A stretch of DNA of 64,000 nt from Lactobacillaceae bacterium (GTDB lineage Bacteria > Bacillota > Bacilli > Lactobacillales > Lactobacillaceae). The stretch lies in the NCBI GenBank assembly GCA_031289015.1, contig JAITQG010000048.1, positions 1 to 64,000 of the forward strand. The letters are read 5' to 3'. Positions 740 to 7,846 of the stretch are shown piece by piece. Position 1 is the first letter of the stretch; the number at the start of each line of letters is the position of its first letter. The translations under genes and the position numbers were made by a program. The notes under the pieces were generated by a model, which did not search any database, was not told where the DNA came from, and worked only from the letters and a program-made list of their open reading frames with translations.

Positions 740-3202
740 TTATTCATTTATTTTAAGAGCTTCAATCATGTTGATGTTTTTTAGTTTGAAGTGAATAATC
801 AACATCACAATTAACGAAAATCCAATCGTGAGCAGCCCAGCACATCCAAAGCTCAACAAGTGAATTGTAGGACTGTACATGATATTGTCGAGCTCGGTTG
901 TCGCCAGAATCAGGCCATGCAAACCAATGCCCAGCCCCCAACCGATAACAATGCCGATCAGCGTCAAAATCCAATTCTCACGATAGACATAACTCGTGAC
1001 TTCACGATCATAAAAACCAAGGACCTTAATCGTTGATAATTCACGCATCCGTTCGGCGACATTAATATTCGTCAAATTATACAACACGACAAACGCCAAT
1101 AGCCCCGCAAAGACAATAATCACAATCACGACAACATTAATGCTGTCCAATGTGACTTTCATGATTTCACGGTTCTTGTTCATGAAATTGACGTTTAAAA
1201 TATTGGGGTCTTGCATTAACGTGCTGCTGACCTTATCTTCACCACTTGCCGGTAACTCCTTGAATTTCATCAGTGCGGTCGTGTAGCGCGGTTGTGCATG
1301 CATGACGGTTTGATAATATTGTGCCGTCATATAAATCGCGTGGCCACTATATTGTTCTGTGATGCCCCCGACTTTGAGGCGATATTGTTTGCCATCAATT
1401 GTCTTGGCGGTAAATGTTTTGCCAACCTTTAACTTAAAGAGCTTGGCAAATTTTTCAGTCACCACGGCGCTGTGGTTGTCGAGCTTAATCGCTTGCCCGG
1501 TTTGCCGATCGCGCAACGTCACGTATTTGGTAAATTGTTCAGGCTTGTCTGTCACCATTAGCGTTGCGGACTGCGTATCAACTTGCTTGGCCTTTTTCTC
1601 CAGGTTGCCCACGCTGACTGGCGTATACGCGTCAAAGTGTTTGGTATCCTTGAGCACTGCTTTTACAGCTGGTGTCAGTTCAGTTGTCGTCACGGTCGCT
1701 TGGTAATGATAGACGGTTTTGAATTGCAGATTTAAAATGTCGCCGATCGAATTACGCAAACCAAAGCCCGCCACCATCAAAGCTGTACAGCCCGCCACCC
1801 CAACGATGACCATGATCATGCGAGTTTTGTACCTAAACAAATTACGTACCGTGACTTTTTGCAAGAAGGTCAAGTGCCGCCAGATGAACACGATCCGTTC
1901 GAGCAAAATGCGCTTACCTGATTTCGGCGCCTTGGGTTGCATCAAGGCCGCTGGGTTCGCTTGTAAATCCCAGCGAAGAACAAACAAACTCACGCCCAAC
2001 GTGCAGATCAACGCCACCACTACACTAATCGCCGACAAACTCCATGAATGGACTGGGATAAATTCGCTGATGTTGTAGACCCCCGAAAAGGCATCCACAA
2101 TCACGTAAGCCAAGCCGTATTCACCAATCAAAATCCCAATAACCGCGCCAAATAAACCGGTCAACACGGCATATAAGATATATTTCTTAGCGATGTCACC
2201 ACTCTGATACCCCAATGCTTTAAGGGTCCCAATTTGCATGCGATTTTCTTCGACCATGCGCGTCATCGTAGTCATCACGATGAGGACGGCCACCAATAAG
2301 AAGAACAACGGGAAAACGAGTGCGATTTTTTCAACACTTGTCGAATTGTCGCGGTATTCATTATAGCCAGGATTGTCAGCGCGCAAAAAAGTATAAATCT
2401 TACTTTGCACTTGAACTGGCAGACCTTGTGATAAACGCGTTGATACCGTTTTTGCCGCAACTTTGCTGACTTGTTTTGCGGTTTGCTTGGCTAATTTATT
2501 ATAGGCACTCGTGTATGCAACGTATTTGTGGGGGTTTTGCAACGTGATTTGTGCCGTTGTCGCCCCTGCGAGATTCAGCGCGGCCGGTTTGACAATGGCA
2601 AAATAATCCACAACACCCTTGCCGACAGTTGCATTGCCCCGACTCTTATTGTCAATAAATCGTGGCGAATTTACGAAGCCAACAATTTTGAATTTATGGT
2701 CACCTAATACGGCCGGTGAAATTCCACTCGCGCCTTGCATCTGGCTCATGTTTGGGGTTAATGAAATCTTCTGCCCAAGCTTAAAGCCAAACTTTTCTTT
2801 GGTAATTTGATCGAGGCTGATTTCCGTTTTGGTCTGCGGCATCCGACCAGATACGATGGCATATTGTTGCTTGTCAGGCTCTGGAATAAAATCGATGACG
2901 GCGTTGTGCTCCTTGACAGCCAAGGTGATTTCTTTGGTCAGCTTAACGCTTTGCACCCCTGCCACTTGCTTGAGCTTTTTAGCATCGGCTTGAGTGAAGC
3001 CATATTGGGAACTCAAGCGAAAATCTGCTAATTCATGCTGGGTAAAATAGTGCTGGGCGCGCACCAATAAATCGGCACTCGAAATCGTGAGGCCGGCATA
3101 AATGGCGACCCCAATAAAAATAATTCCGACAATTGACAAAAAGCGGGTCGGCGACTGAAAAATTTCTTTCCAACCAATTTTACTTAATGCTGTCTTTTTC
3201 AT
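740..3202 (-). CDS. FtsX-like ABC transporter permease (about 820 aa)
   Basis: Two FtsX-type TM blocks with large extracellular domain; next to an ATPase gene; start chosen at MKKTALSK. Confidence 0.88.
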   Translation of the reverse strand: MKKTALSKIGWKEIFQSPTRFLSIVGIIFIGVAIYAGLTISSADLLVRAQHYFTQHELADFRLSSQYGFTQADAKKLKQVAGVQSVKLTKEITLAVKEHNAVIDFIPEPDKQQYAIVSGRMPQTKTEISLDQITKEKFGFKLGQKISLTPNMSQMQGASGISPAVLGDHKFKIVGFVNSPRFIDNKSRGNATVGKGVVDYFAIVKPAALNLAGATTAQITLQNPHKYVAYTSAYNKLAKQTAKQVSKVAAKTVSTRLSQGLPVQVQSKIYTFLRADNPGYNEYRDNSTSVEKIALVFPLFFLLVAVLIVMTTMTRMVEENRMQIGTLKALGYQSGDIAKKYILYAVLTGLFGAVIGILIGEYGLAYVIVDAFSGVYNISEFIPVHSWSLSAISVVVALICTLGVSLFVLRWDLQANPAALMQPKAPKSGKRILLERIVFIWRHLTFLQKVTVRNLFRYKTRMIMVIVGVAGCTALMVAGFGLRNSIGDILNLQFKTVYHYQATVTTTELTPAVKAVLKDTKHFDAYTPVSVGNLEKKAKQVDTQSATLMVTDKPEQFTKYVTLRDRQTGQAIKLDNHSAVVTEKFAKLFKLKVGKTFTAKTIDGKQYRLKVGGITEQYSGHAIYMTAQYYQTVMHAQPRYTTALMKFKELPASGEDKVSSTLMQDPNILNVNFMNKNREIMKVTLDSINVVVIVIIVFAGLLAFVVLYNLTNINVAERMRELSTIKVLGFYDREVTSYVYRENWILTLIGIVIGWGLGIGLHGLILATTELDNIMYSPTIHLLSFGCAGLLTIGFSLIVMLIIHFKLKNINMIEALKINE

Positions 3203-3207
3203 GGCGC

Positions 3208-3909
3208 CTACCACTCAATCGTTTCAACATCTGTTGGCGTCGTGTTGGTGATAATTTCTTGCACCTTTGCATCATGAATGCGAATCACGCGGTCGGCCAT
3301 AGGCGCAATCGCTGAATTGTGGGTAATCACAATCACCGTCGTGCCGGTTTGATCACAAATGTCACGCAACGCCTTTAAAATCAGCTTTCCCGTCGTATAG
3401 TCAAGTGCACCCGTTGGCTCATCACACAACAACAACTTGGGCTTCTTGGCAATCGCGCGTGCAATCGTTACCCGTTGTTGCTCACCACCGGATAATTGCG
3501 CAATAAAATTATCTTGCCGATCAGCCAAGCCAACCGCGGCCAATGCTTCATGTGAATCCATGGCATCCGTGACAATTTGATTCGCTAAGTCGACATTTTC
3601 TTGTGCCGTTAAGTTCGGCACCAAATTATAAAATTGAAAAACAAACCCAACATCATCGCGCCGATATTGCGTTAATTGTTTTTGCGTAAAAGCCGCAATA
3701 TCGATGCCATCTACCAAAATTTGCCCGCTCGTTGGTTTGTCCATCCCACCGAGCATGTTGAGTGCCGTTGACTTACCCGAGCCACTCGGTCCAAGGATGA
3801 TCGCAAATTCACCCTGTTCAATTTGAAAATTCACGCCGTTATTAGCCGCGATGGTCGTATTACCAACGTGATATAGACGCTGCACATCTTTAAATTCGAT
3901 ATAACTCAT
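3208..3909 (-). CDS. ABC transporter ATP-binding protein (MacB/LolD-like)
   Basis: [35 protein letters not shown] motifs. Confidence 0.93.
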
Positions 3910-4165: not shown

Positions 4166-5290
4166 TTATCCTGATGTGAATGCAGATTTTGCTTGCATAT
4201 GATTTTGAGCAGTACGAATTGTATAAAGCAACACAATATACGCTAATGTAACCAAGCACCCGTTGCTAAAATTAACCGCCGGATTCAAAGCTTCTTTTGC
4301 GACGTGTTGATTAACAATTAAGCCCCCTTGTAAATAAACGCCAGGCACCCATTTTAAAATCGGATCCAAAACTGGCAAGATGATTGGGGCGGCGATTTGC
4401 GCCATTGTTACTAACAAGGTCACCATAATCGTCAACAATTGATGTTTGAAAATACTCCCAATAACTTGTGCAAATAGTAGAAAACCAATAATGCCAAGAA
4501 GTTGCAATACTCCCCCTTCAACAATTACTTTCCAGATTGGAATTGCAGTATACGCCACAGTATTTTGCAACACCTCTGGATACGCTAGGTGTCCTGGACC
4601 AAAAAATATAGTTCCCAGTCCAAACGCAATCACCAGGACAGCACCATAAACCAGTACCCCAGCTGCAAAAGTCGAACATAACAGATAATTATCTAAGTGG
4701 TTGGTCTTGATCGGTAAAATCAAATCCATATTTTTATTACGTTGATATTTTTTGGTTAAATCAGCTGTCAGCATGAAAATCATCAACGCAATAATAATTT
4801 CTGGCAGCAACGAATTCATGACTGAACTAACATAATTAACCCCGGATACGCCATCACCGCGCATATCTGGATAAACATTATGTTCCTCGATAAACTTTAG
4901 CTTGGCGAGTTTTGCCTGCTGAGCATTATCGTTACTAATTTTTGCTTGGTCATCAGCATTATTTGCTGCATCTAGTTTAAGCAACGCCAGTTTGGACTTT
5001 GCCACTTTGCTCCATTGTTTATTCGTAAATGCTTTTTTAATTTTTGTTTCAATGGCATAGCGTTGCGTAAGCTTCTCATCAACTGGTTGATTATGAGCTT
5101 TTGACTTTGCAATCGCTTGTTTTTCACTGGCCATGTTAATGTTTAATGCTCCATCAAATTGTGATAGATTACTGGCATTATATTGCAGGTGAAAATATCC
5201 GCCTAACAACAACATTATGACCAACAATGGGATATAGAAGTGCCTTTTCTTAATCAACGCCATGAATTCAATTCTTATTATTTTGTTCAA
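4166..5290 (-). CDS. ABC-2-like membrane protein, paralogue of 5629..6777
   Basis: LNKIIRIEFMALIKKRHFYIPLLVIMLLLGGYF aligns with MNKISRLDFIALIRKKIFYIPLLLIVIIIGGFY; TTG start at 5290 preceded by AAGGAG. Confidence 0.7.
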   Translation of the reverse strand: MNKIIRIEFMALIKKRHFYIPLLVIMLLLGGYFHLQYNASNLSQFDGALNINMASEKQAIAKSKAHNQPVDEKLTQRYAIETKIKKAFTNKQWSKVAKSKLALLKLDAANNADDQAKISNDNAQQAKLAKLKFIEEHNVYPDMRGDGVSGVNYVSSVMNSLLPEIIIALMIFMLTADLTKKYQRNKNMDLILPIKTNHLDNYLLCSTFAAGVLVYGAVLVIAFGLGTIFFGPGHLAYPEVLQNTVAYTAIPIWKVIVEGGVLQLLGIIGFLLFAQVIGSIFKHQLLTIMVTLLVTMAQIAAPIILPVLDPILKWVPGVYLQGGLIVNQHVAKEALNPAVNFSNGCLVTLAYIVLLYTIRTAQNHMQAKSAFTSG

Positions 5291-5337
5291 GACGAGCTCC
5301 TTGCTGAACCGCATTACCATTCAGTCGCATCAAATAT

Positions 5338-5616
5338 TTAATTAATTCTGTGATACCGCCAAATTTGTTGCCAACGATCATAATTCCATCCACCAGCAGC
5401 GTCAATTTCTTCAAGTGTTCTACCTGAATATTGAAAAGTAACATCACGTTTGTGCCAGGCCCCATAAGTTATTTCTGAAGTGATTTTATTTTTATCTTTA
5501 TAGCGCCAATCATCAACTGATTCTGCCTGTGCCATAACAGATTGAAAAACTATGCCTACTGAAAATCCAATAATTACAATACCTAGCAAACTGAGTAATA
5601 CTTTAAATTTTTTCAT
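5338..5616 (-). CDS. Small secreted peptide, bacteriocin-like (Sec signal peptide + about 61-aa Trp/Tyr-rich mature part)
   Basis: MKKFKVLLSLLGIVIIGFSVGIVFQSVMAQA^ES signal peptide; AGGAGTT ribosome-binding site; mature part has 5 Trp and no Cys; lies between two permease genes. Confidence 0.6.
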   Translation of the reverse strand: MKKFKVLLSLLGIVIIGFSVGIVFQSVMAQAESVDDWRYKDKNKITSEITYGAWHKRDVTFQYSGRTLEEIDAAGGWNYDRWQQIWRYHRIN

Positions 5617-5628
5617 AAATAACTCCTA

Positions 5629-6777
5629 TTATTCATTATCATTAATTAGCAAATGTTGACTGGTTTTTTTTTCTATTTTTTGTTGAGACATCCGTATACT
5701 TAAAAGGACAAATATCCAGATTATCGACACAAGCACTCCTTGATCATATGTAATGGCATGATTATTTGTAATTGTTGCAATATGATTATTAACTACGAAG
5801 CCACCCGTTAAATACATTTCTGGAATTATATGCATAATCGAATAAAACGAAGTAAATACTATAGGCGCGACGGATTGAAATACGGTCACTAGTACAGTAA
5901 TCATAATGGTCAATACGGTGTTTTTGAATATTCCACTAAATATTTGTGCGAGTAACAAAACAGCAAAAATACCAAGAATTTGGAGTGACATGGTCTTCAA
6001 TAGGACAATCCAAATTGGAATCGATTTTATACTTTTAGCCGTTTCAAAAATAATTGGATATTGAAAATGGCCCAGTCCATTAAAAATTGTACCTATTAAT
6101 AAAGTGCTAGCTATTATTACGAAATAAACAACAATGGCCGCAGTAAAACTAGTAATTAGCTTTGAATTATCCATAACATTAGATTTTAGCGGGAAAAGTA
6201 AATTTACATTTTTTTTGTTTTGATATTTTTTTGTTAAATTCCCAACCACCATAAATATAATGATTACCACAAACAATTCAGGAAATAATATATTTAATGT
6301 ATCCAACGTAAAGTTTAATCCTGATAATGCACTATTGTTAATATTTGGGTAGACGTTATGGCTTTTTACGAATTGTAAAATCAATTTTTGACGCTGAAAA
6401 TAAATTAAGCCTGGATCTTCCTTGGCAGTAATATGATATTTTTTCGCATAAGCAGCATCAATATCAATTAATGTTATACGATCTTTAGCAACCTGGCTCC
6501 ACTCATGCTTATCAAACGAAACTTGAATTCTTTTCATTAATTTTTGTTCTTTTGATAACCATGCGGGTATTGCTTTACCACTCTTCTTAATCTCTTTTAT
6601 TTGTTTATCATTGAAAGAAATGTTATCCGTTAATAATCCAGCGACACTTCTAGTTGAGCTAGAAGTATACTGTCCAGCATAAAACCCCCCGATAATAATT
6701 ACAATTAACAACAGAGGAATATAAAAAATTTTCTTACGTATTAAGGCGATGAAATCAAGCCTACTAATCTTGTTCAA
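5629..6777 (-). CDS. ABC-2-like membrane protein (permease)
   Basis: About 6 TM segments, long extracellular N-terminal loop; overlaps the end of the ATPase gene. Confidence 0.7.
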   Translation of the reverse strand: MNKISRLDFIALIRKKIFYIPLLLIVIIIGGFYAGQYTSSSTRSVAGLLTDNISFNDKQIKEIKKSGKAIPAWLSKEQKLMKRIQVSFDKHEWSQVAKDRITLIDIDAAYAKKYHITAKEDPGLIYFQRQKLILQFVKSHNVYPNINNSALSGLNFTLDTLNILFPELFVVIIIFMVVGNLTKKYQNKKNVNLLFPLKSNVMDNSKLITSFTAAIVVYFVIIASTLLIGTIFNGLGHFQYPIIFETAKSIKSIPIWIVLLKTMSLQILGIFAVLLLAQIFSGIFKNTVLTIMITVLVTVFQSVAPIVFTSFYSIMHIIPEMYLTGGFVVNNHIATITNNHAITYDQGVLVSIIWIFVLLSIRMSQQKIEKKTSQHLLINDNE

Positions 6778-7366
6778 TTAGCTCACCTCCCCGCAAGGTC
6801 AGTAATTTAGATTCAATTAAAGCCAAGTCGTCTGGCTGATGGGTAACAAATATAATCAGCTTATTTTTTTTACTCATTTCAGAAGTCAAAATTAAGATTA
6901 ATTTTTCGAGATTAACTTCATCTAAACCGTTATTTAACTCATCAATCAACCAATATTTGGTATCACTAACCAAATATAAAGCCAACGTGAGCATTTTATG
7001 CATTCCCAGCGAATATGAACTAACACGCCGTTTTATATATTCAGTCATGTTTAGTTCAGTGACGACGTGATCAATTACAACATCACTTTTCCAAATAAAT
7101 TTAATGTATTCCAAATAGTCTATCCCGGTCATTGTGGAATCAAATTCAAAATCATTAGGTAAATAAAACACATTACGTTGTGGCACTGATGCATAAATTT
7201 TGCCAGTAAATGGGACAAGTCCAAAAATAGCGTTTAACAAGGTAGACTTACCAGAACCATTGCGCGCTTTAATGAGATAAAATTCATTTTCAAGAAAAGA
7301 ATAATTGACGTTATTTAATACATTTAACTTATTAAAGGAAACGCCGAGATTGCTGATTTCAATCAT
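6764..7366 (-). CDS. ABC transporter ATP-binding protein
   Basis: ARNGSGKSTLL Walker A, YSLGM signature, WLIDELNNGLD Walker B. Confidence 0.85.
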   Translation of the reverse strand: MIEISNLGVSFNKLNVLNNVNYSFLENEFYLIKARNGSGKSTLLNAIFGLVPFTGKIYASVPQRNVFYLPNDFEFDSTMTGIDYLEYIKFIWKSDVVIDHVVTELNMTEYIKRRVSSYSLGMHKMLTLALYLVSDTKYWLIDELNNGLDEVNLEKLILILTSEMSKKNKLIIFVTHQPDDLALIESKLLTLRGGELIEQD

Positions 7367-7467
7367 ATTATGTACCCGTGAACTTATTGATTAAATTACC
7401 ATTCAAACTGTCTTAAATATACTAACATAAGTATTTATAAATTACTGCTAATATCTATAAAAAATAT

Positions 7468-7483
7468 AAAAACCACGTTAACT
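7468..7483. repeat. Copy of the left arm of the 7811..7846 terminator
   Basis: aaaaaccacgttaact is identical to 7809..7824. Confidence 0.7.
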
Positions 7484-7700
7484 AATTATTTAGCTCGTTT
7501 TCTGTCGATTTATTTGATTTGATTACTTTATTAAGGGACAACTGCTTATCAACCCCATTACAAATGAAAATCAAAGCCAAACATACCCGTTGAATCCATA
7601 AGTTTTTCTCACCAACAATAAAGCTGGCTAATATAACAAAACCTACAGTACTCCACAAGATAATAAATTTGTTTTTAATTTGTTCCTTCATCATTGCCAC
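7482..7700 (-). CDS. Small two-TM hydrophobic protein, possible immunity protein
   Basis: 72 aa; two hydrophobic segments; first gene of the peptide/ABC cluster. Confidence 0.5.
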   Translation of the reverse strand: MAMMKEQIKNKFIILWSTVGFVILASFIVGEKNLWIQRVCLALIFICNGVDKQLSLNKVIKSNKSTENELNN

Positions 7701-7810
7701 CCTGCGTCTTTTATTCGCTCATGATGCTTCTTAGAAAATAAACTATAAACCGTATTTTATAACATTGTTTTTAATTAAGCAATTAATATCCTTATTCTCG
7801 GAATATCTAA

Positions 7811-7846
7811 AAACCACGTTAACTTGTTAGCTAGTTAACGTGGTTT
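7811..7846 (-). terminator. Rho-independent terminator of the 7877 gene
   Basis: aaaccacgttaact-8 nt-agttaacgtggttt perfect 14-bp stem, T-run on the minus strand. Confidence 0.8.

Follow-up and report, generated by a model that had tools for sequence, protein, structure and literature searches.

The window, the whole stretch of 64,000 nucleotides that was analyzed, contains a cluster of five open reading frames on the minus strand, all present where the earlier note had placed them except for the start of one permease. The 200-residue ABC ATPase (6764–7366) matches ABC_tran (PF00005, E = 3.5e-15) and has an intact Walker A motif (ARNGSGKST), a YSLGM signature region, an LIDE Walker B motif and a VTH H-loop. 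The gene of the ABC-2-like permease A (5629–6777, 382 residues) overlaps the end of the ATPase gene and starts at TTG 6777 behind GGAGG. It is followed by the gene of a secreted peptide precursor of 92 residues (5338–5616), with a ribosome-binding site AGGAG at 5627–5623, and by that of permease B (4166–5290). The most probable start codon of permease B is TTG 5290 rather than ATG 5320, giving 374 instead of 384 residues, since AAGGAG (5302–5297) lies ahead of this codon in the same manner as GGAGG precedes the TTG of permease A. Neither permease matched a Pfam or NCBIfam model above the cut-off; a match to ABC2_membrane_3 was obtained for 2 of 20 members of the permease family.

The fifth frame, encoding a 2-TM-like protein of 72 residues (7482–7700), lies upstream, about 115 bases from the ATPase gene. 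It had been counted as part of the operon, but no convincing relative was found among 151 genomes, which leaves its membership unsupported. It is probably not a functional part, and its candidacy as an immunity component was rejected on the same ground. An imperfect direct repeat (7466–7483 and 7807–7824), which is one arm of the terminator hairpin of the upstream gene, flanks this frame and may mark the edge of an acquired low-GC segment. The GC content is 0.31–0.34 in the cassette, 0.38 in permease B and 0.42 in the window, and the cassette is missing from the other 14 genomes sampled within the genus. Both features suggest that the cassette was acquired, as would fit the interpretation favored below. 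After the module, positions 740–3909 of the window encode a separate MacB/FtsX-type ABC pair of normal GC content (a permease of 824 residues and an ATPase of 233). Several streptococcal loci (L108, L163, L166, L174) likewise have a similar 233-residue ATPase after the module.

The peptide precursor begins with a Sec-type signal peptide, MKKFKVLLSLLGIVIIGFSVGIVFQSVMAQA (5524–5616), whose n-, h- and c-regions and AQA before ES can be read directly from the sequence. The mature part (5341–5523) comprises 61 residues, is predicted to form four β-strands and contains the motif GGWNYDRW. The signal sequence and the Cys-free mature part of about 61 residues described earlier are both confirmed. That the gene is a chance open reading frame was ruled out with a leave-one-out HMM, with which the peptide was the only frame in the window to reach significance (E = 1.8e-12 for the full length, 3.3e-6 for the mature part only). 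With a second HMM built without the window peptide, the latter was the only match in the whole genome (E = 1.8e-4). No Pfam or NCBIfam model matched it above the cut-off.

Relatives of the peptide were sought in several ways. Searched with the peptide sequence alone, 301 Lactobacillaceae genomes yielded weak matches, one of them a secreted peptide of 94 residues encoded beside a similar permease. A search of plasmids with permease A returned a Weissella confusa plasmid encoding an ATPase, a permease and a secreted peptide of 87 residues that ends in SSGWNYDRWEYGYNYY; the genes are ordered like those of the ATPase, permease A and peptide of the window. The record of this plasmid (L011, NZ_CP120517.1, 15.9 kb) resembles a head-to-tail dimer of a plasmid of about 7.9 kb; the ATPase is annotated shorter in one copy and the permease in the other, as if frameshifted. 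Loci were collected with the permease through the 301 Lactobacillaceae genomes, and then with a peptide profile through the Lactobacillales, where 36 of 398 genomes matched, and through a named genome collection, which yielded 29 loci. Named hosts include Streptococcus suis, S. mitis, S. oralis and S. pneumoniae, as well as Vagococcus fluvialis, Lentilactobacillus hilgardii, Lacticaseibacillus zeae, L. mingshuiensis and Holdemanella biformis. The family consensus reads K-S-Y-R-Y-D-x-N ... N-Y-H-x-Y-x-Y-x-x-I-P ... G-W-N-Y-x-R-Y ... N-Y-Y-S-G-G-Y. A class-wide search of 301 genomes found the window and one streptococcus only, a count that may understate the spread because a narrower model of the mature peptide was used there and the full-length model in the order-wide search. 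Matches on the Lactococcus plasmids pMRC01 and pUCCL629C were discarded; their identity is low, they overlap other annotated genes, and the annotation shows no ABC partner of the window's type next to them. A set of 17 peptide sequences had no match beyond chance in Pfam and NCBIfam, and a literature search by peptide motif returned none. The peptide is not an orphan; it is a member of a family that has no Pfam or NCBIfam model.

AlphaFold2 predicted four long strands for the mature window peptide (residues 2–12, 18–24, 32–44 and 48–59; pLDDT 85.9) and likewise for an S. suis relative (pLDDT 88.8), each run of five models including two to three of low confidence. The two models resemble no solved structure in Foldseek at E ≤ 0.001. 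The consistent β-fold of two members speaks for the bacteriocin interpretation favored below; the lack of a solved counterpart, the low-confidence models and the identity of only 13–30% between the window peptide and its relatives speak against it.

The earlier note had likened the layout to that of Sec-dependent bacteriocins with a dedicated ABC immunity transporter, and several observations on the relatives sustain this part of its proposal. The same small ATPase and the ABC-2-like permease both lie within 4 kb of the peptide gene in 55 of 58 loci, a count in which a few loci are doubled as two collections overlap (e.g., L095 and L147). Of the three exceptions, one has a fragmented ATPase, one lies at a contig end and one carries a deletion. 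The permease served to find the Lactobacillaceae loci; in the order-wide search and the named collection only the peptide was used, so that linkage in those loci does not follow from the search itself. The cassette on the W. confusa plasmid also favors a bacteriocin.

The peptide is lost far more often than the pump. Among 24 streptococcal loci, the ATPase is intact in 22 and the permease in 22, and the peptide in 7, although its gene is by far the shortest of the module. As the peptide served as the query for these loci, the sampling is biased against the observation of peptide loss, not for it. Decay of the peptide with conservation of the pump looks like the pattern expected when a toxin is lost and its immunity kept; the streptococcins, for which loss of the peptide and conservation of the partner genes have been reported (PMC6120550), behave alike. 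The peptide also evolves faster than the ABC proteins. In close pairs of intact mitis-group loci, the mature peptides are 58–79% identical and the ABC proteins 88–94%; in a tandem double copy (L099), the peptides are 37% identical and the permeases 75%. In genome G376, two separate copies of the module (L101) lie about 5.7 kb from each other, and their mature peptides are 66% identical.

Of 21 Lactobacillaceae ABC loci inspected, 13 had no recognizable peptide. Wide occurrence of the cluster without the peptide had been put forward as a finding that would speak against a bacteriocin. These loci bear this out in part, but an immunity pump is expected to be found alone. Their existence nevertheless weakens the bacteriocin interpretation, as the pump might have another substrate. 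The same loci could be explained if the pump exports an unrelated substance, with the peptide acting as a pump accessory or as a secreted protein of protective function, such as an immunity or envelope-stress factor. This is quite unlikely: an accessory should persist with its pump, the opposite of what is seen in streptococci, and should not diverge faster than the pump does.

Most mitis-group loci have the module between comEC and infC, as named from context; the SP_0958/SP_0959 leader (PMC2887815) was used in this placement. RNA sequencing of the pneumococcal strain D39V showed that comEA, comEC, SPV_2256, the ABC ATPase SPV_2257 and SPV_0846 are induced during competence (PMC6560143). SPV_2256 corresponds by position to the pneumococcal peptide frame, and such an induction is in keeping with a bacteriocin. 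The small size of the secreted peptide and the proximity of competence genes in streptococci could also evoke a signaling molecule or a self-sensed cue, which the ABC module would sense or take up. We consider this very unlikely, because no kinase or receptor gene recurs among the inspected loci and the pump outlives the loss of the peptide. Moreover, a β-fold peptide of about 60 residues exceeds the known streptococcal pheromones in size.

The part of the earlier proposal that did not hold is the likeness to lactococcin 972. The PF09683 profile, which does recover genuine members from other genomes of the order, matched neither the window peptide nor its relatives. An hhalign comparison with 28 lactococcin 972 members gave P = 0.062 in a wrong register, and 5 of 100 shuffles scored equally well or better. 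In an uncalibrated fold comparison, the lactococcin 972 structures 2lgn and 9hkj, both in the PDB, did not appear among the best 50 matches of the two models. The window ATPase and permeases do not match the TIGR01654/TIGR03608 models of the lactococcin 972 ABC pair; the ABC type differs as well. This pair was found only beside two related loci (L048 and L096): at one S. suis locus, the module is followed by a peptide of the lactococcin 972 family and the TIGR01654/TIGR03608 pair, and at a Lactobacillaceae locus (G098) by the pair alone. Such neighbors speak for a bacteriocin, and the two loci could also be invoked for a highly diverged PF09683 protein that binds lipid II. The size, Sec export, absence of Cys and predicted all-β structure are alike, and SNY and G-x-W...YY elements recur in the relatives when compared by eye. 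Such a kinship is nonetheless unlikely given the results above and the lack of the GG-x-W-x-YG start. The peptide is not a detectable relative of lactococcin 972, and its membership of that family is not shown.

The two permeases of the window are paralogues, as had been claimed, with 36–37% identity. In the permease tree, they form a sister pair (support 100/99) next to the permeases of W. confusa and G300. The unfamiliar arrangement of two permeases around the peptide gene is therefore accounted for by a local duplication, with NisFEG as a functional parallel. Sister or closely related permeases are also paired in L099, L106, L114 and L. hilgardii; L054, L059 and L061 retain an old pair. Elsewhere, permease pairs have evolved repeatedly. 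A third, partial permease of the family (263 residues, L043 4792–5583, contig C65 of the same genome) has no adjacent cognate ATPase and is probably a remnant.

Taken together, the module is likely to consist of a Sec-exported bacteriocin-like peptide, the activity of which is predicted, and a dedicated LanFEG-like immunity pump. The peptide would be synthesized with its Sec signal, cut after AQA and freed as a Cys-free all-β peptide of 61 residues. As the peptide has a Sec signal, the transporter would not be required for its export. The peptide would act on related Gram-positive bacteria, with the cell envelope as its most likely target, and the transporter would protect the producer by clearing the producer's envelope of the peptide. 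The transporter is presumed to assemble from an ATPase dimer and a heterodimer of permeases A and B in the NisF2EG manner, the second permease having arisen as a local duplicate of the first. On balance, we favor the broader view that the peptides constitute an undescribed family of Sec-exported, unmodified, four-stranded β bacteriocins, apart from lactococcin 972 and associated with a LanFEG-like ABC-2 immunity pump, which would extend from Lactobacillales to Erysipelotrichales and be linked to competence in mitis-group streptococci.

If so, a new class of unmodified bacteriocins with a widespread dedicated pump would be present in food lactobacilli and human streptococci, easily recognized by GWNYxRY near the C-terminus. 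It would provide a substrate for the pneumococcal transporter SP_0957/SP_0958, for which the substrate is listed as unknown (PMC11559097). It becomes testable what the ABC transporter encoded behind comEC protects the pneumococcus against, and why competence induces it. The step from one permease to a pair is, in addition, a repeated evolutionary event.

Three known systems can be compared with that of the window. PmtC, from the PmtABCD exporter of phenol-soluble modulins, is the best NCBIfam similarity of the ATPase, with a score (67.8 bits) far below the cut-off of 375. With its two ATPases, the Pmt system exports leaderless helical peptides, in contrast to the window peptide with its Sec signal and predicted all-β structure. 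Lactococcin 972 and streptococcin loci likewise combine, in three genes, a Sec-exported, Cys-free peptide of 60–70 residues with a dedicated ABC pair. They share with the family plasmid and chromosomal copies, loss of the peptide with retained partners and, in one case, streptococcin B, competence-linked expression (PMC11796350). They differ by a TIGR01654 protein of about 680 residues, in place of the ABC-2-like permease of about 390 residues, and by another ATPase subtype. The second-best similarity of the ATPase, at 63.9 bits against a cut-off of 309.75, is to LanF (TIGR03740). The NisE and NisG permeases are smaller than those of the window, and a lantibiotic has a Cys-containing core, whereas the window peptide has no Cys and hence no lanthionine. 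LanFEG transporters nevertheless share with the window the combination of one small ATPase and two paralogous permeases, and NisFEG, built on the NisF2EG plan, removes nisin from the membrane (PMC4234265), a precedent for the immunity function proposed here.
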